Below, piece by piece: positions 1-23,818 of a DNA stretch of 32,551 nt. The notes below the pieces were generated by a model that saw nothing but the letters and a program-made list of their open reading frames with translations, was not told the DNA's origin and searched no databases. A program made the position numbers and the translations under genes. Numbering within the stretch: position 1 is the first letter of the stretch; every line of letters begins with the position of its first letter. The DNA comes from a bacterium (GTDB lineage: Bacteria; Actinomycetota; Acidimicrobiia; Spongiisociales; Spongiisociaceae), in NCBI GenBank assembly GCA_028821265.1, contig JAPPGU010000048.1, positions 1-32,551 of the forward strand, in the 5' to 3' direction.

Positions 1-100
1 GCCGGGAGGCCAGCTCCGCCCGGGCGGGATCGCCCATCACCAGCACCCGCTCGGGTACTTCATCCGGATCCACGCGAAGGATCGGGGTTCGCTCGGCCAT
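1..100 (-). CDS. Nucleoside phosphorylase, PNP/UDP family (partial, 3' end outside window)
   Basis: Only the first 33 residues lie in the window; the gene runs off the left edge. The visible N-terminus ends in VLVMGDPARAELASR, which matches the phosphate-binding GDPxR motif near the N-terminus of hexameric purine/uridine phosphorylases. These enzymes split a nucleoside with phosphate into a base and a (deoxy)ribose-1-phosphate in the cytoplasm. The ATG at 98-100 has a strong Shine-Dalgarno (GAGGAGG) about 6 nt upstream. It follows the aldolase/dehydrogenase gene by 28 bp on the same strand, so it is probably the next gene of that operon. Substrate (adenosine, inosine, methylthioinosine or uridine) cannot be decided from this fragment. 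In context a methylthioinosine/inosine phosphorylase acting after the deaminase is attractive, but this is inference. Confidence 0.7.
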   Translation of the reverse strand, partial: MAERTPILRVDPDEVPERVLVMGDPARAELASR

Positions 101-128
101 CCAAATACCTCCTCGACCGGCAGCCTAT

Positions 129-2102
129 TCAGATCACCCGTTCGTTACCGCCGTCCACGGGGATCTGCGCCCCGGTGGTCACCGCGAAGGCATCCCCGCA
201 CAATTCGACCACCACCCTGGCGACGGCGGCCGAGGTCACCTCAGCGGAGAGGAGGTTCCGGGTCCGGTACTCGACCTCGCTGAGCCCGTAGGCGGCGGCC
301 CGCTGAGCGATCAGGTCCTCGTCCCAGAGGCCGGTGTCGAACACCCCGTCCGGGTGGACCATGTTGACCCGGATGCCGTCATCGGCCCACTCGAGAGCGG
401 CCACCCGGGCCAGTTGGGTGACGGCCGCCTTGGAGGCGGAGTAAGCGGCGACACCGCGGCCCGGAGCCGCGACGTTCTTGGAGGCGATCACCACCACCCG
501 GCCTCCCACCGGGGAGTAGGCCAGGAAGGGATGGACGGAGGCGAGGAGGGTGGCCACGGCATCCGTGTTGACGGCCAGCGTCGCCCGCCACCGGTCTTCC
601 TCCAGCTCGCCGACCGGCTGGGCCTGGCCGAACACCCCGGCCGCCGGCACCACGATGTCGATTCCTCCGAACCGCTCCACCGCTGCGTCGATCGCCGCCT
701 GCTGGGCGGGGCCGTCAGTCACGTCCACCGCTATCCCCAGCCAGGCCGGACCGTCGAAGGCGTCCACGACCGACCCGTCAAGGTCCAGACCGGCCACCGC
801 GCATCCTTTCGACAGCAGGGCCGAAGCGCAGGCCCGGCCGATACCGGAGGCCGCTCCGGTCACCACCGCCACCATGCCGGCGAACTCCGGGGGCCGCCCG
901 GCCCGCCGCAGCTTGGCCTGTTCCAGATCCCAGTACTCGCAGTCGAACAGATGCCCGGCCTCCAGCGCCACGTACCCGCCCAGATGGTCCTCTGATCGTT
1001 CGAGTACCGCCATCGTGTGGTGGTAGATGTCGGCGGCGATGCGGGAGGCCTTGGCGGTCTCACCCACGGTCAGCAGGCCCAACTCCCCGTCCAGCACCAC
1101 CCGGGGCGCCGGATCCAGCATGGTCAACTCGGTCCGGGCTCGGCCCCGGTTCTCCTCGAAGTAGCGGCGATAACCGTCCACGTAGGCGTCCACATCGGCG
1201 CCGACCATGGGAAACCGCTTGGTACGGATGACGTGGTCGGGAGTGAGCGGCCCCCGGGTCGCCAGGCTCTCCAGGTCTGACCTGCCCACGAAGCGGGCCG
1301 CGGCGGCGTCCGTATGGCGGGTCATGATCATCGGCTTGCCGGCCGCGGCCGAGATGCGGCCGCGGAGCCGGGCCAGCCCGACCGGCGCCGCCGGGGGGAG
1401 AGCCGGCAGATCCTGGACAAGCGCCACCGGAGCGTGGGCTTCGAGCCATTCCTCGGCCTTCGAAATCAGCTCGATATGGCGGCCGTATGCCTCCTTCGTG
1501 TCCGCCCCGTAGGTGAACAGACCATGGTTCAGCAGCACCATCCCGATGGCGTCCTCGTGGTACTGAGCGTTCCAGATCTCCACCACCAGCCGGGCCAGAT
1601 CGAAGCCGGGCATGATGTAGGGCACCACCAGCGCGTCCCTTCCGAAGACCTCCCGGATGCGCTCCTCCCCGTCGGCCAGGTTGGTGAGGGTGACGATCAC
1701 GTCCGCGTGGCTGTGCTGGACGGCCGGGTAGGGCAGGAAGGCGTGCAGCAGGGTCTCCACAGAAGGTTGCGGGGCGGCAGGGTCGAGGCGGGCGGCGGAC
1801 AGCTCCCGCATCATGTCCGGATCGGAGAGCCGGTCGAGCGACAGCAGGTCCTGGAGCCGGTCGATGGGAAGGGGCGTGAACCCCGGCGCCTCGATGGTGG
1901 CCAGGTCCCACCCCGAGCCCTTCACGTATAGGGCGTCGATGGTGCGCCCGGTTATGTCGCGAAAGGGCGCCTTGACGGACGTGTTACCGCCGCCGTGCAG
2001 CACGAGGAAGGGGTCGCTCCCGAGCAGGCGGGATCCGTAGACGCACTCGCCCAGCGGACCCTCGAATCCTGCCGCCTCAGCGGCGTCCCACCTGTCTTCC
2101 AT
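129..2102 (-). CDS. Bifunctional class II aldolase / short-chain dehydrogenase
   Basis: 657-residue two-domain enzyme. Residues about 1-230 are a class II (zinc) aldolase: HGGGNTSVK at 36-44, KGSG at 61-64, catalytic-type Glu116 in SVETLLH, and zinc ligands in HSHAD (His130, His132) and NHGLFTYG (His193). Residues about 408-657 are an SDR: TGAASGIG at 415-422, catalytic YSASK at 554-558, and a C-terminal PVDGG. The layout matches the rhamnulose-1-phosphate aldolase/lactaldehyde dehydrogenase family (RhaEW/YuxG type), where the aldolase yields DHAP plus an aldehyde that the SDR half then oxidises or reduces. No rhamnose kinase or isomerase lies nearby, but mtnA and a nucleoside phosphorylase do. 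The ketose-1-phosphate substrate may therefore be 5-methylthioribulose-1-phosphate or 5-deoxyribulose-1-phosphate (inference). ATG start, weak GGGAG upstream; 60 bp after the ABM-domain gene in the same operon. Confidence 0.85.
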   Translation of the reverse strand: MEDRWDAAEAAGFEGPLGECVYGSRLLGSDPFLVLHGGGNTSVKAPFRDITGRTIDALYVKGSGWDLATIEAPGFTPLPIDRLQDLLSLDRLSDPDMMRELSAARLDPAAPQPSVETLLHAFLPYPAVQHSHADVIVTLTNLADGEERIREVFGRDALVVPYIMPGFDLARLVVEIWNAQYHEDAIGMVLLNHGLFTYGADTKEAYGRHIELISKAEEWLEAHAPVALVQDLPALPPAAPVGLARLRGRISAAAGKPMIMTRHTDAAAARFVGRSDLESLATRGPLTPDHVIRTKRFPMVGADVDAYVDGYRRYFEENRGRARTELTMLDPAPRVVLDGELGLLTVGETAKASRIAADIYHHTMAVLERSEDHLGGYVALEAGHLFDCEYWDLEQAKLRRAGRPPEFAGMVAVVTGAASGIGRACASALLSKGCAVAGLDLDGSVVDAFDGPAWLGIAVDVTDGPAQQAAIDAAVERFGGIDIVVPAAGVFGQAQPVGELEEDRWRATLAVNTDAVATLLASVHPFLAYSPVGGRVVVIASKNVAAPGRGVAAYSASKAAVTQLARVAALEWADDGIRVNMVHPDGVFDTGLWDEDLIAQRAAAYGLSEVEYRTRNLLSAEVTSAAVARVVVELCGDAFAVTTGAQIPVDGGNERVI

Positions 2103-2162
2103 CAGATTCTCCCAGGCCGTGCGGAGGCAAGATTAGAGGCCAAGACCGGTTGCCGGCCGCAG

Positions 2163-2465
2163 TCAGGCGATGCGGGTCATCCGGGTGACCACCACGGACT
2201 CGGTATGGTCCGCGATGGCGGCCAGACCATCGGCGATGTGGGGTTCGTCGAGGTGAGCGTCGAGGTCGGCTTCGCTACGCCAGAGGGCGACGAAGCAAAA
2301 GAGCCCGGGCTCGGTGTCGACCGCATGTAGCCGGTAGTCGAGGCAACCCTCCTCCTCGCGGGTGGGCGCGACCATCGCGATGAGCGCGTCCCGCACGGTT
2401 TCCTCCGATCCGGGAACGGCCCGCACCCGCGCTACGGCTCTTAGAGCGCCCGCCATGGAGTTCAA
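2163..2465 (-). CDS. Antibiotic biosynthesis monooxygenase (ABM/YgiN-like) domain protein
   Basis: 100-residue single-domain protein of the dimeric alpha-beta barrel ABM fold. It has an N-terminal beta strand (LRAVARVRAVPG), a helix (EETVRDALIAMVAPTREEEGCLDY), and the characteristic FCFVALWRSEADLDAHLDEPHI stretch. The family includes quinol monooxygenases, but many members have no known substrate. The start is taken as TTG at 2465 because GGAAGGG lies 8 nt upstream; an in-frame ATG at 2456 is the alternative and would remove three residues. It sits between an SDR gene (37 bp upstream) and the fused aldolase/dehydrogenase, all leftward, so it belongs to the salvage operon. A role in detoxifying or oxidising a reactive aldehyde or quinone intermediate is possible but not shown. 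Confidence 0.75.
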   Translation of the reverse strand: MNSMAGALRAVARVRAVPGSEETVRDALIAMVAPTREEEGCLDYRLHAVDTEPGLFCFVALWRSEADLDAHLDEPHIADGLAAIADHTESVVVTRMTRIA

Positions 2466-2502
2466 CTGTACCGCCCTTCCCGGGAACAGGAATAGTCAGG
2501 GT

Positions 2503-3285
2503 TCAGTACCAGGTGTCGCCGCCGTCCACGTTGATGGCCTGTCCCCGGATTATGTGCGCCGCGTCCGACAGCAGGAAGGCGATCACCCGGCCCACCTCCA
2601 TCGGGGTGATGCGCCTGCCCAACTGCGCCGGCCCCATCGATCCCAGCAGCTCGTCGGACGGGATGTCGAGCCGGGGCGAGAGCCACTCGGCCACCCCGGC
2701 CAGCATGGGGGTGTCGACCCCGCCCGGGCAGACCGCGTTGACGTTGATGCCGTGCTCGGCCCACTCCATGGACAGGGACCGGGTGAGGCCGAGGACCGCC
2801 GACTTGGAGGCGTTGTAGGCGGCCATGTTGCGGTAACCCACCTTGCCGCAGTTGGACGCCACGTTGACGATGCTGCCCCCGCCCGAGGCCTTGAGCCGCT
2901 TCCCGACAGCCTGGGCGACCAGGAACGACCCGGTGACGTTGATCTCGAGCTGGTGGTTCCAGTCGGGACCGGTGGCCTCCCAGGCCTCGTCGAGCGTCAC
3001 CACCCCGGCGTTGTTGACCGCGCCGTCGATGCGGCCGAAGTGCTCCACCGTGCCCTCCACCGCCCGTTCGACCTCGCCCGCATCGGAGACATCGGCCCGG
3101 AAGGCGGCGATCGATGTCCCGGTCAGCCCGACCCGGCGGGCCATCGCTCCGGCGCCCTCCAGGTCGACATCCACCAGGGCCGGCATCCCGCCGGCTTCGA
3201 GGACGGCTCGAGTGATCCCTTCCCCGATCCCGCCGGCGGCCCCGGTCACCAGGAAGACGCGTCCCTCGAGGCTGGTCGCGCTCAT
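2503..3285 (-). CDS. Short-chain dehydrogenase/reductase (SDR), copy 2
   Basis: 260-residue classical SDR. Visible motifs are TGAAGGIG at 14-21 for NAD(P) binding, NNAG at 91-94, Asn116, and the catalytic triad Ser144, Tyr157 and Lys161 (YNASK). It ends in INVDGGDTWY, typical of the family. Asp39 and Asp41 after the second beta strand favour NAD(H) over NADP(H). The ATG at 3285 was chosen because it begins just before the nucleotide-binding motif. A GAGG lies 9 nt upstream and the preceding SDR gene stops 11 nt before it. The frame stays open further upstream, but that part has no SDR features and overlaps the neighbour. Substrate unknown: a polyol, sugar or hydroxy acid. Neighbouring operon genes suggest reduction or oxidation of a sugar or aldehyde derived from nucleosides. 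Confidence 0.85.
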   Translation of the reverse strand: MSATSLEGRVFLVTGAAGGIGEGITRAVLEAGGMPALVDVDLEGAGAMARRVGLTGTSIAAFRADVSDAGEVERAVEGTVEHFGRIDGAVNNAGVVTLDEAWEATGPDWNHQLEINVTGSFLVAQAVGKRLKASGGGSIVNVASNCGKVGYRNMAAYNASKSAVLGLTRSLSMEWAEHGINVNAVCPGGVDTPMLAGVAEWLSPRLDIPSDELLGSMGPAQLGRRITPMEVGRVIAFLLSDAAHIIRGQAINVDGGDTWY

Positions 3286-3296
3286 TGGGGATCGCC

Positions 3297-4097
3297 TCAC
3301 CAGGTGGGGTTGCTCATCACGCCGCCGTCCACCACCAGCTCCGCCCCGGTGATCCACCGGGCCAGGTCGGAGCACAGGAAGACGCAGGCGTCCCCGACAT
3401 CCTCGGGGGTGCCGAGGCGCCCCAGCGGGCAGGCCACACTCCAGCGCCCCACACCTTCGGGCCAGGCATCCTCGATACCGGGGCGCGAGATCAGGCCGGG
3501 AGAGACCACGTTGACCCGAACCCCGGCGCTGCCGTAGGCCTGGGCCGCGGCCCGCGCATGCATGATCATGCCGGCCTTGGAAACGGAGTAGTGCCCGTGC
3601 CCGGGCGCCGGGTAACTCCCCTCTATGGAGGCGATGTGGACGATGGCGCCTCCCGAATCCTGGGCGGCCATGGCGGCCGCCGCCGCCTGGGTCAGCCGAT
3701 GGGTGGCGGTGAGGTTGGTGTCGATCATCTCCGACCATTCAGGATCGGTCAGCTCGGCGAATCCGGCCACGGTCTGGACGGCGGCGTTGTTGACGAGGCC
3801 GTCCAGACGGCCGTATCGGTCCAAGGTCATGTCCACGACACGCCGGGGCCCGTCGGGGGCGGTCAGGTCGGCGGTCACCACCAGCCCGGGCTGTCCCGAT
3901 CGGCCCTTGATGGGCTCGACCGGCGATGACCGTGTATGGGAGACCACCGTGGCGCCGGCCGCGGCCATTCTCGCGGCTATACCGGCCCCGATGTTGCCCC
4001 CGGCGCCGGTGACGGCCACCACCCGGCCGTCCAGTGCAATCAGATCGGCGGGCGACCGGCCATCCGAAGCCCGGGGGGCGGAGCTACTCCCTGACAT
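3297..4097 (-). CDS. Short-chain dehydrogenase/reductase (SDR), copy 1
   Basis: 266-residue classical SDR with TGAGGNIG at about 30-37, NNAA in place of the usual NNAG, a catalytic Ser in the IASIEGSY segment and the YSVSK catalytic Tyr/Lys. It ends with ELVVDGG and a short tail. It is clearly diverged from the SDR immediately downstream, so the pair are not a recent duplication. The ATG at 4097 overlaps the end of the cupin gene by 14 nt, indicating translational coupling; a TTG at 4106 would add three residues. Family members oxidise sugars, polyols and 3-hydroxyacyl compounds; specificity cannot be read from the sequence. The operon position suggests a step in carbohydrate or aldehyde handling. 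Confidence 0.82.
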   Translation of the reverse strand: MSGSSSAPRASDGRSPADLIALDGRVVAVTGAGGNIGAGIAARMAAAGATVVSHTRSSPVEPIKGRSGQPGLVVTADLTAPDGPRRVVDMTLDRYGRLDGLVNNAAVQTVAGFAELTDPEWSEMIDTNLTATHRLTQAAAAAMAAQDSGGAIVHIASIEGSYPAPGHGHYSVSKAGMIMHARAAAQAYGSAGVRVNVVSPGLISRPGIEDAWPEGVGRWSVACPLGRLGTPEDVGDACVFLCSDLARWITGAELVVDGGVMSNPTW

Positions 4098-4530
4098 AGC
4101 GGGCAATGAGGTAGGCGGCTTCCGGGTACAGGTCTACCAGCTCGTCGAAGCTACCCAACTCGAATCCATCCTCACGGTAGGGCGGCGCCATGGTAGTTCC
4201 CACCAGCGACCAGTCTCCGGTGGTGCCGGCGCCCATCCACACTCCTCCGGGAACCGCCACGAAAGGGCGCTCCCCCGCTTCCAGGTCGTCCCCGAGCAGC
4301 AGGCGCCTCGCTCCACCGTCCGGCTCGAGCAGCAGCATCTCCACCGGATGTCCTGCGTAGTGGTGCCAGAGTTCCGGCCCGTCCAGGCGATGGAGGGCCG
4401 AGAAGTCCCCCGGCTGCATCAGGTAGTAGATGGCCGTACTGTTCCCGTCCCGCCAGGTACGGGCCCACATTCCCCCCTCGGAAGGCAACGGCGCCAGACC
4501 CAGCAACTCGGCTACTTCGGGGCCGGTCAC
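4084..4530 (-). CDS. Cupin_5 (DUF985) family protein
   Basis: 148-residue cupin of the cupin_5/DUF985 type. It shows the N-terminal leucine-rich segment, then YYLMQPGDFSALHRLDG, ELWHHYAGHPVEML and the family's conserved FVAVPGGVWMGAG and GTTMAPPYREDGFELG blocks, close to the usual full length. His residues in the first and second cupin motifs (SALHRLDG, WHHYAGHP) could bind metal, but the family has no settled biochemical role; sugar-isomerase or epimerase roles have been considered. The GTG start at 4528-4530 overlaps the TGA of the upstream deaminase gene (GTGA), so translation is coupled. Context suggests it acts on a sugar or sugar phosphate in the salvage pathway. Confidence 0.8.
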   Translation of the reverse strand: MTGPEVAELLGLAPLPSEGGMWARTWRDGNSTAIYYLMQPGDFSALHRLDGPELWHHYAGHPVEMLLLEPDGGARRLLLGDDLEAGERPFVAVPGGVWMGAGTTGDWSLVGTTMAPPYREDGFELGSFDELVDLYPEAAYLIARYVRE

Positions 4531-5834
4531 TCTGCCAGCCGCCGGGCGCGCTCCGTCACCTCCGCCCTCACCTCGTCAACGTCCACGGTGAGCACCCGGC
4601 CCTCGCTGACCACCTGCTCCCCGCCCACCCAGACGGAGCGGACCGCCCGGGGCGATCCCGACCACACCAGCCGCGACACCGGATCGTCCTCCTCCGGCAC
4701 CACCGGATGCAGAGCCGACTCAGACGGCGAAAGCTGCACCATGTCGGCCCGGCAACCCGGCTCGATCCGGCCCAGGTCGGAGCGCCCGATGGCGTCGGCG
4801 GCCCCGGCCGTGGTCATGTGGAGCGCATCGTGGGGTGGCATGAAGGCTGCATCCCCCCGGTCCAGCCGGGCCAGCCGGATGGCGGTGCGCATCTCCTCGA
4901 ACAGGTCGAGCCGGTGGTGCGAGGCCGGGCCGTCCGTGGCGATCCCCACCTTGATCCCGGCCCGGATCATCGCGTCCACCCTGGCCAGGCCCGAGCCGTG
5001 CTTAGTGTTGGAACACGGGCAGTGCGCCGCCCCCACCCCGTGGCGGCCGAAGATCTCCATGTCCTCGTCCGAGAGCCACACGCAATGGGCAGCCAGCACC
5101 CTGGCCTCCAGCATGCCGAGCGACTCCAGGTAGGCGGGCGCCGACAGGCCGCCGGACAGCTCCCGCACCGCCTTGTCCTCCCACTCCTGCTCGGCGACGT
5201 GGATGTGGACCAGCATGTCGTGCTCGCGGGCCAGGCGGGCGACCATCTCCAGGCATTCCTTCGACACCGACCAGGCGGCGTGAGGACCCAGGCCCACCTC
5301 GATCAACTCGCTCGATGCCCACCGGTCCCGGGTGGCCACCATCTCCTCCAGCTGTTCCTGCCAGGTGCCCATCCGGCCCAGCTGGGCGTCCTCGATCACC
5401 GGAGCGGCCACCACGCACCGGAGCCCTGCCTCGGCTGCCCCCCGAGCGACCGAATCCCCGAAGAAGTACATCTCCGATGACGTGGTGATGCCGTTGGAGA
5501 GAAGCTCGGCGGCGCCCATCAGCATGCCGACCCTCACGTCATCCGGGGTCAGGCGCCCCTCCCGGGGCCACATCACCTCGTGAAGCCACCGGTCCACCGG
5601 CAGCCCTTCTCCGGCGCCGCGCAGCAGGATCATCGGCGTGTGGGCATGGAGGTTGACGAATCCGGGCATCAGGATGCCGTCTATCCGGTGAACCGGAGTC
5701 CCGTCCCGGTCGGGCGCCTCCGAGGCCGCGCCGGCCCACACCACCCGTCCGCCCTCCACGTCCACCACGCCCCCCGGGATGGGGGTCCGTCCCTCGGACA
5801 TGGTGATCAGCAGATCGGCTTGGTAGCGGTCCAT
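4527..5834 (-). CDS. mtaD: 5'-methylthioadenosine/S-adenosylhomocysteine deaminase (amidohydrolase)
   Basis: 435-residue amidohydrolase-superfamily protein of the TrzA/AtzA/MtaD branch. Metal ligands are visible as His63 and His65 (HAH), His212 (HIH) and Asp301 (TDGPASHH). The substrate-site motifs GPHA (183-186) and AHCVWL around His250 are those of MTA/SAH deaminases. It would convert MTA or S-adenosylhomocysteine to the inosine analogues plus ammonia in the cytoplasm. Guanine or chlorohydrolase activity is the main alternative, but the mtnA gene only 48 bp away on the other strand supports MTA. The ATG at 5834 starts the leftward operon; the stop overlaps the cupin start. Confidence 0.82.
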   Translation of the reverse strand: MDRYQADLLITMSEGRTPIPGGVVDVEGGRVVWAGAASEAPDRDGTPVHRIDGILMPGFVNLHAHTPMILLRGAGEGLPVDRWLHEVMWPREGRLTPDDVRVGMLMGAAELLSNGITTSSEMYFFGDSVARGAAEAGLRCVVAAPVIEDAQLGRMGTWQEQLEEMVATRDRWASSELIEVGLGPHAAWSVSKECLEMVARLAREHDMLVHIHVAEQEWEDKAVRELSGGLSAPAYLESLGMLEARVLAAHCVWLSDEDMEIFGRHGVGAAHCPCSNTKHGSGLARVDAMIRAGIKVGIATDGPASHHRLDLFEEMRTAIRLARLDRGDAAFMPPHDALHMTTAGAADAIGRSDLGRIEPGCRADMVQLSPSESALHPVVPEEDDPVSRLVWSGSPRAVRSVWVGGEQVVSEGRVLTVDVDEVRAEVTERARRLAE

Positions 5835-5882
5835 CTAATCGCCCCCGGTCAGCTGGGTTTGGCAGCCTGTAGCATAAATATC
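5835..5882. promoter_or_regulatory. Divergent promoter region between mtaD and mtnA
   Basis: A 48-bp gap separates the divergent starts, so both promoters must overlap or extend into coding sequence. On the plus strand TAGCAT (5870-5875) is a plausible -10 hexamer whose start point would fall at or next to the mtnA ATG (5883), implying a leaderless mRNA. No ribosome-binding site precedes that ATG. No convincing -35 is seen. On the minus strand only a G-rich stretch precedes the mtaD ATG. Confidence 0.4.
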
Positions 5883-6932
5883 ATGCAGCAACTCGGTGAC
5901 CGTCCGCTCGACTGGATCGACGGCGGGGTCTCGATGGTCGATCAGACCAGACTCCCCGACTCGTACGAGGTGATGCGGATCAAGTCGGTCCCCGACATGG
6001 TGGCCGCCATCCGCCGCCTGTCGGTGCGGGGCGCCCCCGCCATCGGCGTGGCCGGCGCCCTCGGAGTGGCGCTGGCCATCCAGGCCCACGGAACCTCCGG
6101 ACCCGACTTCGACCGGGCGATCCACTCCCTGCGGGAAGCCCGACCCACCGCGGTGAACCTGGCCCGGATGGTGGACAGGGTGGCCCCCCTCGCCGAGCAG
6201 GGCCTGGACCGCGTGCTGGCCGAGGCGCTCGCCATCCGGGACGAGGAGATCGCCGCGTCCGTGTCCATGGGAGAGTACGGGGCCGATCTCGTGACCCGGC
6301 TGGTGAGCGAGCGGGCGGCCCGGGCGATGACGATCTGCAACACCGGGGGCTTGGCGACCATCGAGCGCGGCACCGCCCTGGCGGTCATCCAGACCCTGCA
6401 CGAGCGGGGCACGCTGGCGGAGGCGCTCGCGCTCGAGACCCGGCCCCTCCTCCAGGGCGCCCGCCTCACCGCCTGGGAGCTGGCCCGCATGGGGGCTCCC
6501 CACCGGCTCCTGGTCGACTCGGCCGCCAACTTCATGCTGGCCCGGCGACAAGCCGACGTGGTCCTCACCGGCGCCGACCGGATTGCCGCAAACGGCGACA
6601 CGGCCAACAAGATCGGTACCTTCTCCCTGGCTCTCGGCGCCCGGTACGCCGGGGTCCCCTTCATCGTGGTCGCCCCGGAGTCGACCGTGGACATGGACAC
6701 TCCCGGGGGTGACGCCATCCCCATCGAGGACCGGGACGCCGGAGAGGTGGTGTCCGTCCGGGATCGTGCTACCGCTCCTGCGAATACCGACGCCGCCAAC
6801 CCCGCCTTCGACATCACGCCGCACGCCCTGATCACCGCGATCGTGACCGATCGGCGGGTGGTCAGGATTGATCGAGGTGATAGCCTCCGGTCGGTGCCGC
6901 TCGGGGAGCTTCGCCGACCGGCCAACGAGTAG
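5883..6932 (+). CDS. mtnA: S-methyl-5-thioribose-1-phosphate isomerase
   Basis: 349 residues, the usual MtnA length. Characteristic motifs are VRGAPAIGVAGALG at 48-61, the catalytic Cys152 in ICNTGGLAT, an equivalent of the conserved DSAA block (DSAANFML at 212-219) and the catalytic Asp232 in GADRIAANGDTANKIGT. It isomerises 5-methylthioribose-1-phosphate (and in some bacteria 5-deoxyribose-1-phosphate) to the ribulose-1-phosphate form. The closely related ribose-1,5-bisphosphate isomerases are less likely. The ATG at 5883 fits the start of the family's first beta strand and lacks a Shine-Dalgarno. The nucleoside importer begins 55 bp downstream, and the deaminase is divergent. No mtnB, mtnC or mtnD homologue appears nearby, so the classical methionine salvage route is not completed here. 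Confidence 0.93.
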   Translation: MQQLGDRPLDWIDGGVSMVDQTRLPDSYEVMRIKSVPDMVAAIRRLSVRGAPAIGVAGALGVALAIQAHGTSGPDFDRAIHSLREARPTAVNLARMVDRVAPLAEQGLDRVLAEALAIRDEEIAASVSMGEYGADLVTRLVSERAARAMTICNTGGLATIERGTALAVIQTLHERGTLAEALALETRPLLQGARLTAWELARMGAPHRLLVDSAANFMLARRQADVVLTGADRIAANGDTANKIGTFSLALGARYAGVPFIVVAPESTVDMDTPGGDAIPIEDRDAGEVVSVRDRATAPANTDAANPAFDITPHALITAIVTDRRVVRIDRGDSLRSVPLGELRRPANE

Positions 6933-6987
6933 TCGACACTGTGACAGACACACCAGCGGAACGTCCGCTCTGAGGGAGGAGAACCCC

Positions 6988-8100
6988 ATGACCAGACCCC
7001 TGAAGATCCTGGTGCTCGTACTGGCGCTGGCCCTAGTGGGCGCCGCCTGCGGAGACTCCGAAGACGAGGCGCCCGCCACCACAGCCGCGCCCGCCACCAC
7101 AGCCGCGCCCGCCACCACGGCTGCGTCCGCCACCACCGCGGCGCCGACCACCACGATGGCGCCCGAGGATCCGGTCAGCCTGATCTACGTCAGCCCCAAC
7201 CCGTTGGGCGTGAACAACTTCCTGATTCTGGGCGAGGTGGGTACCCAGCGTGTGGCCGAGCGGCGCGGCGGGACCTGGAAGACCTTCGAGTCGGTAGACG
7301 ACTCCACCCGGAGGGCCAACATAGAGGCAGCCATCGACGAGGCGCCGGACGTCATCGTTCTCACCACATTCACGCTCGTCGAGATGGCAGACGAGTACTC
7401 CAAGGCCAACCCCGACCAGAAGTTCATCATCATCGACGCCTGCCCCGAAGAGCCTGCGCCCAACCTGCACTGCGGAGTCTTCCGGGAGCATGAAGGCGCC
7501 TTCCTGCTCGGAGTGATGGCCGGCCACCTGTCGGAGGCGAAGCAGATCGGCTCCGTGGTGGCCCTCGACATCCCGTTCTTCAAGCGGTGGTGGCAGAGCT
7601 TCGCCGAGGGGGCGCAGTCGGTTGATCCCGATATCGAGAACTCGGTGGTGTTCATCGCCGGTGACAACCCGTTCTCCGACCCGGCACGCGCCAAGGAACT
7701 GGCGCTGTCGCTGGCGGCGCAGGGTCCCGACCACATCTTCGCGGTTGGCGCCGGATCCAATGGCGGTATCTTCGAAGCCGCCGCGGAGGCCGGCTTCCTC
7801 TCGTACGGCGTGGACGTCAACGAGTGTCCCAGCGCGCCCGGCTACATCATCGACAACAACCTGAAGGTGGTCGATGCGGTGGTCGAGCAGCTCCTCGACC
7901 AGGTACTGGACGGGACTGCCGGTCCGGTGGTGTCCTTCGGACTGTCCGAAGGCGGGACCGGGGTGATGGCCCTGCAACCGGGCCTGGCCGACAGCCAGTG
8001 TGTGATCGCCGACCATCCCGACATCGTCGAGGAGGTCCGCGCGGTGGCCGAGGGAATCATCGACGGCTCGATCGTGGTCAACGATCCGTTGTTCGGCTGA
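6988..8100 (+). CDS. BMP-family nucleoside-binding lipoprotein of an ABC importer
   Basis: 370 residues. A lipoprotein signal peptide (charged MTRPLK, hydrophobic core, lipobox VGAAC with Cys21) is followed by an Ala/Thr/Pro linker (30-59) and a basic membrane protein (BMP/PnrA/Med) domain. Domain features include an N-terminal SLIYVSPNPLG strand, DVIVLTTFT, KFIIIDACP and GAFLLGVMAGHLS, with SYGVDVNE near the C-terminal lobe. PnrA-type proteins capture purine or other nucleosides outside the membrane. It has an AGGGAGGAG ribosome-binding site 7 nt before the ATG. It follows mtnA by 55 bp and precedes its ATPase and two permeases. The ligand might be MTA, deoxyadenosine or ordinary nucleosides. 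Confidence 0.87.
   Translation: MTRPLKILVLVLALALVGAACGDSEDEAPATTAAPATTAAPATTAASATTAAPTTTMAPEDPVSLIYVSPNPLGVNNFLILGEVGTQRVAERRGGTWKTFESVDDSTRRANIEAAIDEAPDVIVLTTFTLVEMADEYSKANPDQKFIIIDACPEEPAPNLHCGVFREHEGAFLLGVMAGHLSEAKQIGSVVALDIPFFKRWWQSFAEGAQSVDPDIENSVVFIAGDNPFSDPARAKELALSLAAQGPDHIFAVGAGSNGGIFEAAAEAGFLSYGVDVNECPSAPGYIIDNNLKVVDAVVEQLLDQVLDGTAGPVVSFGLSEGGTGVMALQPGLADSQCVIADHPDIVEEVRAVAEGIIDGSIVVNDPLFG
7075..7146 (+). repeat. Four 18-bp tandem repeats encoding ATTAAP linker
   Basis: Four in-frame 18-bp units encode ATTAAP/ATTAAP/ATTAAS/ATTAAP. The first two copies are identical at the DNA level; the last two differ mostly at third positions. They form the flexible spacer between the lipid anchor and the binding domain. 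Confidence 0.9.
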
Positions 8101-8111
8101 TCGGGAATCGG

Positions 8112-8128
8112 CGGCTCTCCAAGAGCCG
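8112..8128 (+). promoter_or_regulatory. Hairpin between binding-protein and ATPase genes
   Basis: CGGCTCT (8112-8118) and AGAGCCG (8122-8128) form a perfect 7-bp stem with a CCA loop, 11 nt after the binding-protein stop. No T-tract follows. Such an element could stabilise the 3' end of the lipoprotein message or attenuate read-through, allowing more binding protein than transporter. Confidence 0.5.
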
Positions 8129-8147
8129 TGAAGACGGCTGATCCGCC

Positions 8148-9671
8148 GTGACAGCGGCTCTCGAGTTCCGGGGAGTAACCAAGCGGTTCCCGGGCGTGCT
8201 CGCCAACGACGCAGTCGACATGACGGTGCGCGCCGGGGAGATACACGCCGTGGTCGGGGAGAACGGGGCGGGCAAGACGACCCTGATGTCGATCCTGTTC
8301 GGCCTGCTCCCGGCCGACGCCGGCCACATCCTGGTGAACGGCGAACCGGCGCGGTTCGCGTCCGCCCTGGACGCTATCCGCGCCGGACTCGGGATGGTGC
8401 ATCAGGCCTTCCGGCTCTTCCCCACGCTGACCGTCGCCGACAACGTGGTGTTCCGAGAGGAACCCACGCGCAGTGGCCTGGTGGACCGGTCAGAGAGCAT
8501 CCGGCAGGTGAGAAACGTCGCCGACCGATACGGACTGGCGGTCGACCCGACCGAGGTGGTCGAGAACCTCCCGGTCGGGGTGTTACAGAGGGTCGAGATC
8601 CTCAAGGCTCTCTACCGGGATGCGCAGATCCTCATCCTGGATGAGCCGACCGCCGTGCTGACCCCCCAGGAGCGGGACAAGCTGTTCGAGGTGATCAGGC
8701 TGCTCAGAGACTCCGGACGCACCATCCTGTTCATCACTCACAAGCTCGGCGAGGTGATGGCTCTGTCGGATCGAGTCACCGTTCTCCGCGACGGCCGCTC
8801 GGTTGCCCATCTCGTCACGGCCGACACGAGCCCCGAAGAAATCGCTCGGCACATGACCGGACGCGAGGTCGACCTGGACCGGAGGGCGCCTCAACACAGC
8901 CCGGGCCAAGCGGTACTGGCAGTGTCGGACCTCGGCGCGACCGGCGAGCATGGGCGGCTGGCCGTCCACGAAGCGTCGCTGGAGGTTCGTTCAGGTGAGA
9001 TCGTCGGGATAGCAGGCGTTGCGGGCAACGGTCAGAGCGAACTGATCGAGGTGATAGCGGGGCTACGGGCGGCGGACTCCGGCTCGGTGCACCTCAACGG
9101 CGTTGACATCACCCACGCAGAGGTGTCGGCCCGCCGGTCCAGCGGCATGGCCTACGTACCGGAGGACCGCCACGGGGTGGGGACCAGCCACCGGGCCTCG
9201 GTGTGGGCCAACCTGCTGATGAGTCACCAGCGGGGACCGGCGTTCCAGCGGAGAGGCTGGTTCAACCTGCGGGCTGTCCGTAAACATGCCCGCAGTCTCA
9301 TCAGCGCCTACGACATACGAACGGGCCCGATCGGCAGTCCCGTGTCCACCCTGTCGGGAGGCAACCTCCAGAAGGTCGTGGTGGCGCGCGAGATATCCCA
9401 CGGGGCCCCGTTGTTGATCGCCGAACAGCCCACCCGAGGGCTCGACATCGCGGCGATCGAGTTCATACACAGCCGTCTGATCCAGTTTCGGAATGACGGC
9501 GGAGCAGTGTTGATGGTGTCAGCCGAGTTGTCCGAGATCCTTGCTCTGAGCACACGGATCCTGGTTATGTTCGAAGGCCGGATCGTCGTCGAGTTGGACC
9601 CGTCCCAGGTCACCGAGGCCGATGTCGGCGTCTACATGACCGGAGCACACCAGGAGCACCCGGATGGCTGA
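8148..9671 (+). CDS. Nucleoside ABC importer ATPase with two nucleotide-binding domains
   Basis: 507 residues with tandem ABC domains, as in the YufO/NupO/ribose-type (CUT2-like) ATPases. Domain 1 has Walker A GENGAGKT (37-44), Q-loop Gln86, a degenerate signature LPVGVLQRVEI (141-151) and Walker B LILDEPT. Domain 2 has a P-loop-like GVAGNGQSE (290-298) in which the Walker A Lys is replaced by Gln, an intact LSGGNLQK signature (402-409) and LIAEQPTRGLD. This division between a catalytic and a degenerate site is normal for the family. The GTG start at 8148 lies 47 nt after the lipoprotein gene; its 3' end overlaps the permease start by 8 nt. Confidence 0.9.
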   Translation: MTAALEFRGVTKRFPGVLANDAVDMTVRAGEIHAVVGENGAGKTTLMSILFGLLPADAGHILVNGEPARFASALDAIRAGLGMVHQAFRLFPTLTVADNVVFREEPTRSGLVDRSESIRQVRNVADRYGLAVDPTEVVENLPVGVLQRVEILKALYRDAQILILDEPTAVLTPQERDKLFEVIRLLRDSGRTILFITHKLGEVMALSDRVTVLRDGRSVAHLVTADTSPEEIARHMTGREVDLDRRAPQHSPGQAVLAVSDLGATGEHGRLAVHEASLEVRSGEIVGIAGVAGNGQSELIEVIAGLRAADSGSVHLNGVDITHAEVSARRSSGMAYVPEDRHGVGTSHRASVWANLLMSHQRGPAFQRRGWFNLRAVRKHARSLISAYDIRTGPIGSPVSTLSGGNLQKVVVAREISHGAPLLIAEQPTRGLDIAAIEFIHSRLIQFRNDGGAVLMVSAELSEILALSTRILVMFEGRIVVELDPSQVTEADVGVYMTGAHQEHPDG

Positions 9672-10773
9672 AACTCAACCGATCCAACGCAGCGGCGTCG
9701 CCGCCAGGATCGAGGCGGTACTTTCCCATCCGGTCGTCTTCTCGCTGGTCTTCGCCTTCGCCCTGGGCTGGGTGATCGTCTACCTGACCGGAAACGACCC
9801 CGGCTTCGCCTACCGGGAGATGTACGACGGGGCCATCACGGGCTCAGGGTTGCGCAACACCCTGGGGAGAGCTGTTCCGATCGTCGGGATGGCCCTGGCC
9901 GTGTCCGTTGCCTTCCGGGCAGGGGTCATCAACCTGGGTGGGGAAGGCCAGATGGTCATGGGGGGCCTGGCCGGAAGCCTGGTGGCGATCTATACACCGG
10001 GACCGGGCGAGATCGTCATCCCCCTGGCGATGATCGTGGGGGGATTGACCGGGGCGCTGTGGGCGATGCTGCCCGCCTTCGGGCAGACCCGCCTCCGCCT
10101 ACCCATCCTCATCACCAGCCTGCTGCTCAACTACGTGGCCAGAGCCGTGACCGGATACCTGGTGCGCTTCCACTTCCTCGACGACTCCGTGACGCTGACC
10201 TCCACCCAGCAGGTTCCGCAGACCGCACGCATGCCCAGGCTGCCGATCTTCGGAGGAGTGAGCCTGTCGCTGGTGCTGGTCATCCTGGCGGTGGTGGTCG
10301 CGTGGGTGGTCTATCGACGGACGGTGGCCGGCTACGAGACCCAGATGGCCGGCTTTAACGGCCGGTTCGCCCGCTACGGGGGAATCCAGGTGGAACGCCA
10401 GACCGTCGGTGTGATGGTCGTGGCCGGCGCCATCGGCGGGGTGATAGGAACCCACATGATCATCGGCGACGCCTACCGTTTCATCGACGGAGAGCTGGTG
10501 GTGAGCGGCCTCGCCTGGACCGGCCTGCTGGTGGCCCTGCTGGCCGCCAACTACCCACCGATGATCCTGGTGGCCGGGCTCCTGTTCTCGGGCCTCCAGA
10601 TCGGCGGTCTTGCCATGCAGCGCAACGCCGATGTGTCGTGGCGCCTGGCCCAGGTACTCCAGGCACTGGTGATAGTGGCGGTGGCCAGCCGGTTGGCCTT
10701 CGACCTGTTCAGGCGACGGCGAAGGGGCCCCACCAGCGGCGAGCTTGAATCGGCCGGTGTGGGAGAAGTGTGA
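9664..10773 (+). CDS. Nucleoside ABC importer permease 1 (BPD_transp_2)
   Basis: 369-residue polytopic membrane protein of the branched-chain/ribose/nucleoside permease superfamily (NupP/YufP type). Hydrophobic segments begin with VVFSLVFAFALGWVIVYLTG. The family's conserved loops VAFRAGVINLGGEGQMVMGG and the GFNGRFARYGGI region, where the second subunit type has GxNxxAAxYxGI, are visible. It forms the channel with the second permease. The ATG at 9664 overlaps the ATPase gene by 8 nt, and its stop overlaps the next ATG (TGATG), so the transporter subunits are translationally coupled. Confidence 0.9.
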   Translation: MAETQPIQRSGVAARIEAVLSHPVVFSLVFAFALGWVIVYLTGNDPGFAYREMYDGAITGSGLRNTLGRAVPIVGMALAVSVAFRAGVINLGGEGQMVMGGLAGSLVAIYTPGPGEIVIPLAMIVGGLTGALWAMLPAFGQTRLRLPILITSLLLNYVARAVTGYLVRFHFLDDSVTLTSTQQVPQTARMPRLPIFGGVSLSLVLVILAVVVAWVVYRRTVAGYETQMAGFNGRFARYGGIQVERQTVGVMVVAGAIGGVIGTHMIIGDAYRFIDGELVVSGLAWTGLLVALLAANYPPMILVAGLLFSGLQIGGLAMQRNADVSWRLAQVLQALVIVAVASRLAFDLFRRRRRGPTSGELESAGVGEV

Positions 10774-11690
10774 TGTTCGATCAGCTGTTCGACGCCGCCC
10801 TCCTGGAGTCAGTGGTCAGGGCAATGGTCCCGATCCTGCTGGCCGCCCTGGGCGGGATGATCTGCGAACGGGCCGGCGTATTCCAGATCGCAATGGAAGG
10901 AATGATGCTGGCGGGGGCCTTCGCGGCGATGGCCGGTTCGTACCTGGCGGTGTCCAGCGGACTGGGGATTGTGTTCGGGGTGACCGCTGGAGTGCTCATT
11001 TCCCTGATGCTGGCCTTCGGAACGGTCAGCCGGCAGGGGGACCCCATCGTGCTCGGCATCGCTCTCAACCTCATGGCGCTGGGGCTCACCGGATTCCTGC
11101 TACCGCAGATCTTCGGCGTGCGCGGTACCTTCCGCCACGAGCGTATCGACGGGCTGGATCGACTGCCGATTCCGGGGCTGTCCGAGATCCCGTGGATCGG
11201 ATCGGTCCTATTCGACCAGACGATCCTCGGCTACCTGGCCTTCCTCCTGGTGCCGGCTATCTGGCTTCTCCTGTTCCGCACGCCGGCGGGCCTGCGTCTT
11301 CGGGGAGTGGGCGAGCGCCCTCTAGCGGCCGAGTCCTTGGGTGTCAGCCCCACCGCCTACAAGTACGGCGCGGTGATCGCTTCGGGTGTGCTGTCGGGAC
11401 TGGCCGGAACCCAGTTGGCCCTGGGCAACCTGGTCCTGTTCGCCGAGGGAATGTCGGCGGGACGCGGCTGGGTAGCCGTCGTGGCGGTCATGCTGGGCCG
11501 GGCCCATCCCTTCGCCGTGTTCGGCGCCAGCCTGCTGTTCGCCTTCGCCGAGGGGCTCGGGTTCCGGCTCCAGGGCAACGGCCTCCCGGTCCAGATCACC
11601 GATGCCCTGCCCTTCCTGGTGACCCTGATCGCCCTGATCGCCGCCCGCAAGCGCTTCGCCCGGCTCCTGGACCTCACCACCGGCGGCTAG
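10773..11690 (+). CDS. Nucleoside ABC importer permease 2 (BPD_transp_2)
   Basis: 305-residue membrane protein, partner of the preceding permease (NupQ/YufQ type). The family motifs ICERAGVFQIAMEGMMLAGAF and GERPLAAESLGVSPTAYKYGAVI are visible, with several hydrophobic spans between. The ATG at 10773 shares an A with the upstream TGA and has GGGAG 7 nt upstream; a GTG one codon earlier is possible. It is the last gene of the mtnA-importer block. Its TAG and the TAG of the convergent LysR gene share the palindrome CTAG (11687-11690). Confidence 0.9.
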   Translation: MFDQLFDAALLESVVRAMVPILLAALGGMICERAGVFQIAMEGMMLAGAFAAMAGSYLAVSSGLGIVFGVTAGVLISLMLAFGTVSRQGDPIVLGIALNLMALGLTGFLLPQIFGVRGTFRHERIDGLDRLPIPGLSEIPWIGSVLFDQTILGYLAFLLVPAIWLLLFRTPAGLRLRGVGERPLAAESLGVSPTAYKYGAVIASGVLSGLAGTQLALGNLVLFAEGMSAGRGWVAVVAVMLGRAHPFAVFGASLLFAFAEGLGFRLQGNGLPVQITDALPFLVTLIALIAARKRFARLLDLTTGG

Positions 11691-12601
11691 CCCCGAGTTT
11701 CCGCCGACTCACGGCTTTCCGGTGGGTTGCCGCCCTTGACCAACTCGATCAGGCGGGCAGCACGCGGATCGAGGTCCTCTCCCGACCTCCAGACCGCCTC
11801 GATCGGCCGGATGGCCACCAGCGGACCTTCCGTCAGGCCGGAGTCGTCCCCCGCCGTCGCCACCTGCCGGGGAAGCACGGTCCGGGCGTAACCGAGAACC
11901 GCCATCTGGCGGAGCACGGTGGGGTGAGCCGACTCGAGAGCCACCTCGGGATGGATGCTCATTCTGGCCAACCCGTCGTCGATGAGTTGCCGGGTGCGCG
12001 AGGCGGACGGGTAGAGCGCCCAGCCCGCGGGCGTGGCAGGCCCCGATCCGGAGTCGGGAGAGCCGGCCATGTCATCCGGCAAGGAGTAGACACGCAGCTC
12101 CTCTTCGGCAATGGCCTCCGAGTTGTAGCGGGCACCGGCCGGGCCGACCACGAGAGCCAGGTCCACCCTGTATTGATCCAGCATGGACAGCAGCTCCGCC
12201 GACTCGCCGACCACCAGTTGGAGTTCGATCCCGGGCCGCTCCTGCTGCAAGCGGGACAGGCCGCGGGGAAGGGTGTAGAGACCGACGGTGTCGATCAACC
12301 CCACCCGGAGAGATCCGACCTCGCCCCGCTGCCAGCTGTCCAGCCACCGGAGCAGATCCCCGGTCTGGCCGACCACCCGATCCGCATAGCGCAGCACCCG
12401 CTGCCCAGCCTCGGTGAGAACTCGCCGCCGCCCGTCCTTCCTGAACAACGGCACCCCCAGCCGCTTGGAGAGTTCGGCCAGCGAATGGGAAAGGGCGGGC
12501 TGGCTGATGCCAAGCACCCAAGCCGCCTCGGTGAACGTTCCCTGGCGCTCCACCTCTTGGAGGTAGCGCAGGCTCCGGAAGTTCAGTACTGGCATATCCA
12601 T
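11687..12601 (-). CDS. LysR-family transcriptional regulator
   Basis: 304 residues. An N-terminal winged helix-turn-helix (about 3-65) has FRSLRYLQEVERQGTFTEAA and ISQPALSHSLAELSKRLGVPLF, followed by a periplasmic-binding-protein-like effector domain with the typical LRVGLIDTVGLYTLP beginning near residue 100. LysR proteins are tetrameric activators that respond to a small co-inducer. It converges on the nucleoside importer and diverges from ino1, with 91 bp between the two starts. ATG codons at 12601 and 12595 are both possible. Targets are unknown; autoregulation, ino1 and the adjacent nucleoside-salvage operons are candidates. Confidence 0.92.
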   Translation of the reverse strand: MDMPVLNFRSLRYLQEVERQGTFTEAAWVLGISQPALSHSLAELSKRLGVPLFRKDGRRRVLTEAGQRVLRYADRVVGQTGDLLRWLDSWQRGEVGSLRVGLIDTVGLYTLPRGLSRLQQERPGIELQLVVGESAELLSMLDQYRVDLALVVGPAGARYNSEAIAEEELRVYSLPDDMAGSPDSGSGPATPAGWALYPSASRTRQLIDDGLARMSIHPEVALESAHPTVLRQMAVLGYARTVLPRQVATAGDDSGLTEGPLVAIRPIEAVWRSGEDLDPRAARLIELVKGGNPPESRESAETRG

Positions 12602-14108: not shown

Positions 14109-15311
14109 ATGACGTACCGGCCGGAGCAGGGGCGGATGAGTATCGCCCGCAAGCTTTTCATTGGTCTGTCCGTGCTGTTACTGGTGGCTGCCGCGTGCGG
14201 GGAGAGCGAGCCTGAGGCCACATCGGCTGCCACTACCGCGGCGCCAGCCACGACCGCCGCCCCGGATACGACCGCGGCGCCCGACACCACTGCCGCTCCG
14301 GATACCACAGCGGCTCCCGCCACGACCGCCGCTCCGGATACGACGGCGGCGCCCGACACCACTGCCGCTCCCCCGGAGCGGGCCACGGTCAGGATCGCGC
14401 TCGACTTCATACCCAACACCAACCACGCCGGCATCTTCATCGCCCGTTCGATGGGCCTGTTCGAGCGTGAGAACCTGGATATCGAGGTCGTTCCGTGGGC
14501 ATTCACGGTCACGGGTGTTCTCGTCGAGGCAGGGGACGCCGACCTAGGTATCGCGTACCCACCCGATCTGCTCCGAGAGGTGGCGCTCGGTTCGTCGCTG
14601 AAGATCGTGGCGGCCATCATCCAGGAGAACAACGTGGCACTGGTCGTTCCTGCTGACTCTCCGTTCCAGACAGCGGCCGACCTGGGTGCGGCCGAGTCGT
14701 ACGGTGGCTACGGCACGCCGCACGAGAGGCCGCTCGTCACCGAGATGCTCACCGCGGCCGGAGCTGCTACGCCAGGGGACTTCCAAGAAGTAGTGCTGCA
14801 GGGTGGAGCGATCGAGGCCCTGATCGAGGACCGTGTCGACTTCAGCGCGGTGTTCCAGGGGTGGAGCGAGATTGCCGCCCGGTTGCGCGGCACCGAACTC
14901 CGCCTCTTCCCCTACGTCGACTTCATTCCGGAGATTGTCTATCCGGACGTCGTCTTCATCGCCCGATCCGAGATGATCGAGCAGCAACCCGACGTACTCG
15001 CGAGAGCCCTGAGAGCTCTGGGTGAGGCATACACGTTCGCGGCGGAGAACCCCGACCAGGCGGCTGACATTCTCATCAGCGAGGTCACGGACCTCGAGCA
15101 GAGCGAGCCGCTGGTTAGAGAGAGCGCCCACTACCGGGCCGCGCAGTACCTCAATGACGACGGGGTTTGGGGCTGCGTGCAGACGTCTCACTTCGCTGGA
15201 ATAGGTGGTCTGCTGGAGCGGTCCGGTGTGCTCCTGGACGAGGAAGGCCAAGTGGTGACGGCACCCGAGTTCTCGGTGTATGCAACCAACGAACTCCTGC
15301 CCGATTGTTGA
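14109..15311 (+). CDS. thiY: THI5/ThiY-like pyrimidine-precursor-binding lipoprotein
   Basis: 400 residues: signal peptide with lipobox VAAAC (Cys30), a 48-residue ATTAAP/DTTAAP linker (41-88), then an NMT1/THI5-type binding domain. The domain opens with RIALDFIPNTNHAGIFIARSMGLF, closely matching the D-(W/F)-x-PNTNH-G signature of ThiY and yeast THI5. ThiY binds N-formyl-4-amino-5-aminomethyl-2-methylpyrimidine, a breakdown product of thiamine. GGGAGGGGAGAG precedes the ATG. The permease, ATPase, an amidohydrolase and TenA follow on the same strand, the same gene set as in thiamine base-degradation salvage. Sulfonate/taurine-type ligands are the alternative within the wider family. An internal ATG (codon 10) is possible. 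Confidence 0.82.
   Translation: MTYRPEQGRMSIARKLFIGLSVLLLVAAACGESEPEATSAATTAAPATTAAPDTTAAPDTTAAPDTTAAPATTAAPDTTAAPDTTAAPPERATVRIALDFIPNTNHAGIFIARSMGLFERENLDIEVVPWAFTVTGVLVEAGDADLGIAYPPDLLREVALGSSLKIVAAIIQENNVALVVPADSPFQTAADLGAAESYGGYGTPHERPLVTEMLTAAGAATPGDFQEVVLQGGAIEALIEDRVDFSAVFQGWSEIAARLRGTELRLFPYVDFIPEIVYPDVVFIARSEMIEQQPDVLARALRALGEAYTFAAENPDQAADILISEVTDLEQSEPLVRESAHYRAAQYLNDDGVWGCVQTSHFAGIGGLLERSGVLLDEEGQVVTAPEFSVYATNELLPDC
14229..14372 (+). repeat. Eight 18-bp linker repeats including a 72-bp segmental duplication
   Basis: Eight 6-residue units (A/D-TTAAP) fill residues 41-88. At the DNA level the 53 bp at 14247-14299 recur at 14319-14371 with two mismatches, a period of 72 bp (four units). 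This indicates expansion by duplication of a four-unit block rather than of single units. Confidence 0.9.
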
Positions 15312-15358
15312 AGCCTCGGCTGGGAGTGAGGGTCCCGACCGGGACAGTGGGCTGACGC

Positions 15359-19017: not shown

Positions 19018-19018
19018 A

Positions 19019-19037: not shown

Positions 19038-19087
19038 ATGTCGGGTAGTTCACCGATGTCGGGGCTAGCGGGCCTCCGCGAACTCTC

Positions 19088-19744: not shown

Positions 19745-19779
19745 TCCGCCTCCGTGACCACGGCCGGGGTATCGATTGG

Positions 19780-23802: not shown

Positions 23803-23818
23803 CGCCGGTCCGTGGCCC

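Follow-up and report, generated by a model that had tools for sequence, protein, structure and literature searches.

The window analysed here is a complete contig of 32,551 bases (JAPPGU010000048.1, our G000:C39) from a bacterium of the family Spongiisociaceae (Actinomycetota), and its left edge is the contig end. Next to this edge lies a leftward series of genes in the order mtaD, Cupin_5, two short-chain dehydrogenases (SDR3 and SDR2), an ABM-domain protein, a fused class II aldolase/SDR and a nucleoside phosphorylase (Table 1). The mtaD and Cupin_5 genes overlap, as do Cupin_5 and SDR3, and the remaining gaps measure only 11 to 60 bp, so that the arrangement is that of one operon. Divergently from it, mtnA starts 48 bp from the start of mtaD and is followed by the genes of a BMP lipoprotein, an ABC ATPase and two permeases, and by a LysR gene on the opposite strand. 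We propose that the locus is most likely a variant of the dihydroxyacetone phosphate (DHAP) shunt with a deaminative entry and an oxidative exit. A previous sequence-only reading of this DNA had suggested a deaminative DHAP shunt with its own importer, and our analysis partly supports it. Every gene that it named is present, in the orientation and at the 48-bp spacing it described, although its list of the operon omitted Cupin_5/DUF985, the two SDR genes and the ABM protein.

Table 1. Genes of the putative shunt locus (positions in the window; aa, amino acids)
Feature	Position	Strand	Remarks
Nucleoside phosphorylase (NP-I, PNP_UDP_1 type), first 33 codons only	2..100	-	truncated by contig end
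Fused class II aldolase (N-terminal) and short-chain dehydrogenase (C-terminal), 657 aa	129..2102	-	PF00596, PF00106, NF006196
ABM-domain protein, 100 aa	2163..2465	-	PF03992
SDR2, short-chain dehydrogenase, 260 aa	2503..3285	-	position conserved across loci
SDR3, short-chain dehydrogenase	3297..4106	-	position conserved across loci
Cupin_5 (DUF985)	4084..4530	-	110.9 bits, cut-off 25; in 19/29 order-level loci
mtaD-like nucleoside deaminase (amidohydrolase)	4527..5834	-	PF01979; nearest PDB entry 4f0r
mtnA, 5-methylthioribose-1-phosphate isomerase family	5883..6932	+	TIGR00512; PDB 6a34, 2yrf
BMP/PnrA-type substrate-binding lipoprotein	6988..8100	+	PF02608, 124.5 bits, cut-off 24.1
ABC transporter ATPase, two ABC domains	8148..9671	+	PF00005, two stretches
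ABC permease (BPD_transp_2)	9664..10773	+	PF02653
ABC permease (BPD_transp_2)	10770..11690	+	PF02653
LysR-type regulator, end of importer genes	11687..12601	-	PF00126, PF03466

The fused protein matches the equivalog model NF006196 ("bifunctional aldolase/short-chain dehydrogenase") over its full length with 948 bits (cut-off 831), while it stays below the cut-off of the rhamnose model TIGR02632 (429 bits against 567.75). Residues E116, H130, H132 and H193, presumably the metal ligands, and S541, Y554 and K558, which we take to be the SDR catalytic residues, are invariant in 34 aligned sequences including that of the window. The nearest solved aldolase domain is 3m4r, an unnamed protein, and no other solved aldolase was found below E 0.1. 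In a tree of 73 rows, obtained by a quick search with support from the Shimodaira-Hasegawa-like approximate likelihood ratio test (SH-aLRT) only, the 67 rows of this family stand apart from six rows of RhaEW-type rhamnose enzymes with an SH-aLRT of 100. The mtnA-linked label requires 7 changes on this tree and none of 500 shuffles was as low, an outcome which near-copies favour; the order-level rows were assumed to be mtnA-linked with no per-row check, L058 among them although its contig ends before mtnA. The tree omitted four copies of order-level loci (L066, L067, L068 and L123), two broken or cut genes (L091 and L143), most near-copy order-level loci (16 of 29 entered, two of which were then removed for their shortness) and 24 of 97 rows whose flanks were short or which, past the first 22, had no mtnA nearby. 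What the aldolase acts on could be approached only by context, namely a clade apart from RhaEW and a linkage to MtnA and, in some lineages, to MTAP, Apt or MtnK.

Within the order we sought the fused gene in 138 genomes, counting a match at 1e-60. Matches were found in 38, five of which (G007, G025, G090, G111 and G123) have only a RhaEW-type protein at 34-36% identity, which leaves 33 genomes with the fused enzyme; the five were counted among the 105 without it. A mtnA above the cut-off is present in 31 of the 33 genomes, against 10 of the 105 (Fisher p 7e-20, relatedness ignored), while a MTAP match of at least 200 bits, a limit of our own choice, is found in 2 of the 33 against 27 of the 105. 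Among 29 order-level loci, 24 carry mtnA, 22 the phosphorylase, 20 mtaD and 20 the BMP protein; some of these loci are short, the contigs of L013, L054 and L060 being under 7 kb and that of L058 ending inside mtaD. All 20 loci with mtaD also have the phosphorylase, and two further loci have the phosphorylase without mtaD. The gene order of the window was found again in families f1 and f8, with L057 lacking the SDRs and Cupin_5; for SDR2 and SDR3 only the positions were used, as their per-locus counts are inflated by cross-matches. Hence the operon is real and strongly conserved, and the conserved neighbourhood expected by the sequence-only reading is borne out. The ABM gene is confined to the window and 8 of the 29 loci.

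Other front ends occur in the same order. In L152, which lies outside the 29, mtaD is accompanied by a MTAP-like gene with no match to the phosphorylase, and the contig ends inside the aldolase. In family f7 (L062-L064) the fused gene lies near a homologue of methylthioribose (MTR) kinase and two different mtnA copies; in L064, the one f7 locus of the three that was scanned, this homologue scores 402 bits with TIGR01767 against 275. The same three loci carry an ABC importer which, by eye, is of the sugar type. The six RhaEW-type controls, all from the order, had no mtnA, MTAP, Apt, Upp or MTR kinase in flanks of 1 to 7 kb.

The 33-codon stub of the phosphorylase did not match any Pfam family by itself. 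It is, however, 97% identical to a complete gene of 241 aa beside the fused gene in L039, and we identify it on the basis of this match. The L039 protein matches uridine- and DeoD-type models, all below their cut-offs, gives no match to the methylthioinosine phosphorylase model NF006599 at 1e-10, and has as its nearest PDB entry the purine nucleoside phosphorylase (PNP) of Plasmodium (2b94); judged by its sequence, it is a purine-type enzyme. Relatives were aligned (L072 excluded, the L047 row breaking off), with 13 rows readable at position 7 and 12 at positions 184 and 206, several of them near-identical. The equivalents of Glu184 and Asp206 of the Plasmodium enzyme (PfPNP) are kept in 12/12 of these relatives, and its 5'-contact residue His7 is replaced by Ile or Val in 13/13, in line with the specificity that the sequence-only reading needed for this gene. 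With the loss of His7, a contact with the 5'-hydroxyl disappears. Two of three His7 mutants of PfPNP shift their preference to methylthioinosine (PMC3885546). The same paper names five residues surrounding the 5'-methylthio group; in our alignment the equivalents of Val66 and Met183 are kept in 13/13 and position 73 is Ile, Val, Leu or Ala. Two paralogues of the same genome as the window (L032 and L034) have His at the place of His7, as counted back without gaps from the GDP motif.

As for the deaminase, its nearest PDB entry is named a deaminase of 5'-methylthioadenosine (MTA) and S-adenosylhomocysteine (1.8e-67), and the second, 4dyk, is named only amidohydrolase; we take the latter to be the P. 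aeruginosa MTA deaminase. MtnA reaches 359 bits with TIGR00512 (cut-off 279), against only 147 bits with the ribose-1,5-bisphosphate model. The BMP-type transporter may import MTA.

Beyond the order, we scanned the best 80 of 592 relatives of the fused enzyme in named genomes. A mtnA lies within 5 kb of the fused gene in 33 of these 80 loci and within 600 bp in 26; with at least 4 kb on both flanks (48 loci), it is found in 21. The 80 include four order-level loci that carry public names, and without them the count is 30/76. Two loci, L082 and L105, have one flank shorter than 1 kb. Of the 47 loci without mtnA nearby, 26 genomes were searched, and mtnA was found above the cut-off in 23 of them; the same 26 genomes gave a MTAP match of at least 250 bits in 20 cases, above the cut-off in 17. 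Near the fused gene in the best 80, MTAP occurs 7 times, adenine phosphoribosyltransferase 6 times, uracil phosphoribosyltransferase 4 times and MTR kinase once, the latter in one of the four order-level loci. Some far relatives (Gallionella, Zetaproteobacteria, Planctomycetota) have the fused gene beside mtnA, in part together with MTAP and apt, and in six loci of Proteobacteria (L083, L084, L087, L090, L104 and L114) MTAP and adenine phosphoribosyltransferase are clustered with mtnA and the fused enzyme. For clusters that release adenine in this way (Ferrigenium, Gallionella, Zetaproteobacteria and others), MTA or 5'-deoxyadenosine is a fitting substrate. In a plasmid collection, the best matches to the fused enzyme are 42% identical (Shinella). 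Two of 312 plasmid records were inspected; one is a locus with LsrF and an FGGY kinase, in the other, from Rhizobium, the gene adjoins ABC and glycerol-3-phosphate genes, and mtnA is not annotated in either, their annotation being incomplete. We also observed that in Saccharothrix luteola (L076) mtnA and the fused gene lie near a protein for which Pfam shows a B12-binding domain only; this protein may be a radical S-adenosylmethionine (SAM) enzyme, and hence a source of 5'-deoxyadenosine.

Considering all the above results, we regard it as probable that the genes of this locus form a DHAP shunt which is entered by deamination and left by oxidation, its substrates being 5'-deoxyadenosine and/or MTA, neither of which has a free 5'-hydroxyl. 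The support comes from gene content, conservation and co-occurrence, from which the substrates are inferred. The nucleoside would be taken up by the BMP-type ABC importer and, going by the family of MtaD, deaminated to the 5'-modified inosine. The hexameric-type phosphorylase, by its family and pocket residues, would then release hypoxanthine and 5-deoxy- or 5-methylthioribose-1-phosphate, and MtnA, in a reaction established for its family, would isomerise this sugar phosphate to the ribulose-1-phosphate form. Given its context and fold, the class II aldolase domain would cleave the product to DHAP and acetaldehyde or (methylthio)acetaldehyde, and the attached SDR domain may oxidise the aldehyde to acetate or (methylthio)acetate. 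We suggest an oxidation at this step because purified RhaEW of Chloroflexus yielded lactate with NAD+, while no activity was obtained with NADH (PMC3870299). The window does not match the known entries of the shunt (MtnN plus MtnK, or MtnP) and has MtaD and the phosphorylase in their place: MtnK and MTAP gave no match in the window, MTAP gave none at E 0.001 in its genome, and MtnN was not searched with a model of its own. A deamination-first order would agree with the finding that 31 of the 33 genomes with the fused enzyme have no MTAP match reaching 200 bits.

Several observations weigh against this proposal. The deaminase falls under every NCBIfam cut-off (NF006549 319/540, NF005557 254/522, NF012037 212/779) and could act on adenosine. 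Tyr160 of PfPNP is replaced by Phe in 13/13 relatives of the phosphorylase, and this very exchange lowers the methylthioinosine activity of PfPNP, for which Tyr160 is described as important (PMC3885546). His at the place of His7 is not universal outside the operon, as it is one residue off in paralogue L033 and Ala stands there in the paralogue at the right end of the window. One order-level locus, L049, lacks mtaD and the phosphorylase and keeps the rest. In the named loci, the linkage to mtnA (33/80, or 21/48 with long flanks) is well short of all, and four loci of Candidatus Microthrix type (L075, L077, L079 and L081) have the order upp-mtnA-fused aldolase, a uracil phosphoribosyltransferase being a partner which does not suit 5'-deoxyadenosine. 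In cyanobacteria, where 23 of 194 sampled genomes have the fused gene (at least 51% identity to a cyanobacterial query), mtnA is present in 21 of the 23 against 130 of the 171 without it (p 0.11) and ARD in 3 of the 23 against 44 of the 171 (p 0.30); neither difference is significant in Fisher tests that ignore relatedness. Finally, a trimeric, inosine/guanosine-type PNP adjoins the phosphorylase in 11 of the 29 loci, so that ordinary nucleosides may also be processed here.

The main rival is a general ribonucleoside route, in which adenosine or inosine would be imported and, through deamination and phosphorolysis, give ribose-1-phosphate; the MtnA-family isomerase would turn this into ribulose-1-phosphate, and the aldolase would cleave the latter to DHAP and glycolaldehyde, which the SDR would oxidise to glycolate. 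The Microthrix-type loci sustain it, as does the trimeric PNP, and so do the BMP-type importer of the window and a known archaeal pathway which ends in a ribulose-1-phosphate aldolase (PMC9700705). The BMP importer is found within 5 kb in three of the four upp loci, and in two of them (L075 and L079) the upstream, diverging gene is by eye a pseudouridine-5'-phosphate glycosidase (psuG). We nevertheless consider this route unlikely, since MtnA passes the methylthioribose-1-phosphate model and scores far lower with the ribose-1,5-bisphosphate model (359 against 147 bits), the MTAP, apt and MTR kinase partners of other lineages fit 5'-modified adenosines, and the operonic phosphorylase has lost the His that contacts the 5'-hydroxyl. 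A wider view, to which we likewise give a low probability, would see the fused enzymes as a so far unassigned branch of nucleoside-sugar catabolism which is widespread and whose linkage to MtnA covers at least Actinomycetota, Pseudomonadota and Planctomycetota, with lineage-specific front ends (deaminase and phosphorylase, MTAP with Apt, MTR kinase, or Upp for nucleosides that release uracil); some members, possibly including that of the window, would then burn ordinary ribonucleosides through ribulose-1-phosphate to DHAP and glycolate. If true, the ribonucleoside route would bypass the pentose phosphate pathway.

The other explanations fare worse. The SDR domain, or SDR2 or SDR3, could oxidise C4 of 5-deoxyribulose-1-phosphate to 3-hydroxy-5-phosphonooxypentane-2,4-dione, which a thiolase of LsrF type would split to DHAP and acetyl-CoA with no free aldehyde. 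SDRs usually oxidise alcohols to ketones, the substrate of LsrF, as deduced from its name, is the C4-keto form of 5-deoxyribulose-1-phosphate, and the fused gene has a LsrF homologue no more than 100 bp away in L062, L063 and the Shinella plasmid L153, and one at about 2 kb in L132. Yet the window has no LsrF match (the rest of its genome was not searched for LsrF), only 7 loci have one at 1e-15, the L153 protein is just 42% identical, and the assayed Chloroflexus RhaEW made lactate; we therefore give this route a slim chance. A partial LsrF-type thiolase was also seen near the fused aldolase/SDR in L098. Classical methionine salvage, with the aldolase domain serving as a MtnB-like dehydratase, would agree with the presence of MtnA and with the placement of MtnB in the same class II aldolase superfamily (PMC6302742). 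However, ARD/MtnD had no match in the genome of the window (84.6% complete) nor in the other 14 genomes of its family, in searches that did not include MtnB and MtnC. To our knowledge, the fused SDR has no role in methionine salvage. We have rejected this very improbable explanation for the lack of an ARD match; of the local absence of MtnB, MtnC and MtnD noted in the sequence-only reading, that of MtnD thus extends to the genome. The least probable explanation is a rhamnose or fucose (6-deoxyhexose) pathway. Its basis is the domain order shared with RhaEW, assayed as rhamnulose-1-phosphate aldolase/lactaldehyde dehydrogenase (PMC3870299), whereas the fused protein passes NF006196 and fails TIGR02632, belongs to a separate clade, and has no rhamnose genes, sugar isomerase or sugar kinase among the scanned operon genes; conversely, six RhaEW-type relatives of the same order lack the partner genes sought. 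Clade and context thus largely refute this assignment, and we rejected it.

The DHAP shunt is known in two variants, one with a nucleosidase and a kinase and one with MtnP (PMC10986504). Like the MtnP shunt of Rhodospirillum rubrum and Rhodopseudomonas palustris (MtnP, MtnA and Ald2), the system we propose combines MtnA with a class II aldolase, would act on 5'-methylthio or 5'-deoxy nucleosides and is expected to yield DHAP and an aldehyde; it differs in having a deaminase and a hexameric-type phosphorylase instead of MTAP/MtnP, and a fused, RhaEW-like aldolase. The aldehyde formed from MTA appears as 2-(methylthio)ethanol in E. coli (PMC10986504) and, through the MtnP shunt, in R. palustris (PMC5893883), whereas that of the window is expected to be oxidised. 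With the kinase variants, Pfs-MtnK-MtnA-Ald2 of E. coli and DrdK-DrdI-DrdA of Bacillus thuringiensis, it shares a MtnA-type isomerase and a class II aldolase; there, however, the aldolase has a gene of its own, and the passages searched in three papers mention neither a deaminase in the cluster nor a fused dehydrogenase. E. coli grows on an external substrate of the DHAP shunt (PMC10986504), and sugar transporters are found in four published clusters for 5-deoxyribose (PMC6079011).

Deamination before phosphorolysis also has precedents. In Methanocaldococcus jannaschii a 5'-deoxyadenosine deaminase, MtiP and a MtnA-type isomerase act in series, and a review proposes an aldolase step to DHAP and acetaldehyde (PMC6302742). 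This organism is an archaeon, though, the passages drawn on mention no fused aldolase/dehydrogenase, and the published proposal runs to 6-deoxy-5-ketofructose-1-phosphate (PMC6079011). Likewise, Pseudomonas aeruginosa deaminates MTA and then phosphorolyses methylthioinosine (PMC6302742), and the Plasmodium PNP accepts methylthioinosine, again an inosine form (PMC3885546); unlike these, the window has a hexameric-type phosphorylase with no match to NF006599 and a pathway which appears to run to DHAP in one operon. The fusion of a class II aldolase to an SDR, with DHAP and an oxidised aldehyde as expected products, is shared with RhaEW, from which the window enzyme is set apart by its clade, its MtnA context and the missing rhamnose context. 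The claim of the sequence-only reading that no such complete set had been described must therefore be narrowed: the series of deaminase, phosphorylase and isomerase was known, as were sugar transporters in 5-deoxyribose clusters, whereas a fused aldolase/dehydrogenase in a DHAP-shunt pathway was not found in the passages of the literature searched, in which an earlier description could have escaped us. In our view the deaminative entry is not new in kind, while the fused oxidative exit seems to be. A search for literature on nucleoside transport in sponge-associated Acidimicrobiia returned nothing.

Radical SAM enzymes and polyamine synthesis leave behind 5'-deoxyadenosine and MTA, both of them inhibitory by-products. 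The known clusters for the disposal of 5-deoxyribose are "far from ubiquitous" (PMC6079011). Our proposal would give a concrete role to a large class of proteins that is now called only "bifunctional aldolase/short-chain dehydrogenase", and it predicts an oxidation, to acetate or (methylthio)acetate, where E. coli and R. palustris are reported to form alcohols. In addition, according to Rapp et al. 2021 (PMC8102628), cyanobacteria which possess only mtnP and mtnA, with Ald2 missing, "must employ another pathway", and the fused enzyme is a candidate for part of this question. Eight of the best 80 named loci are cyanobacterial, and the six genomes searched all have mtnA and MTAP above the cut-off; the fused gene, occurring in only 23/194 cyanobacterial genomes, is not a general answer. 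A general role in cyanobacteria was dropped, as the links to mtnA and ARD are not significant.

No known RNA family (riboswitches) was found at gathering scores in the window. The LysR gene may be tied to the pathway, as its position in family f1 suggests. Further along, positions 14109-32550 hold an ABC transporter protein of NMT1 type, a second amidohydrolase (31% to mtaD), a GMC oxidoreductase, a peptide-type solute-binding protein, an M20 peptidase and a class III aminotransferase, and a second nucleoside phosphorylase is cut by the contig end at the right end of the window. Another phosphorylase fragment, resembling the f8 type, lies at a contig end elsewhere in the same genome (L035, G000:C33), and is either part of a second copy of the operon or a contaminant.

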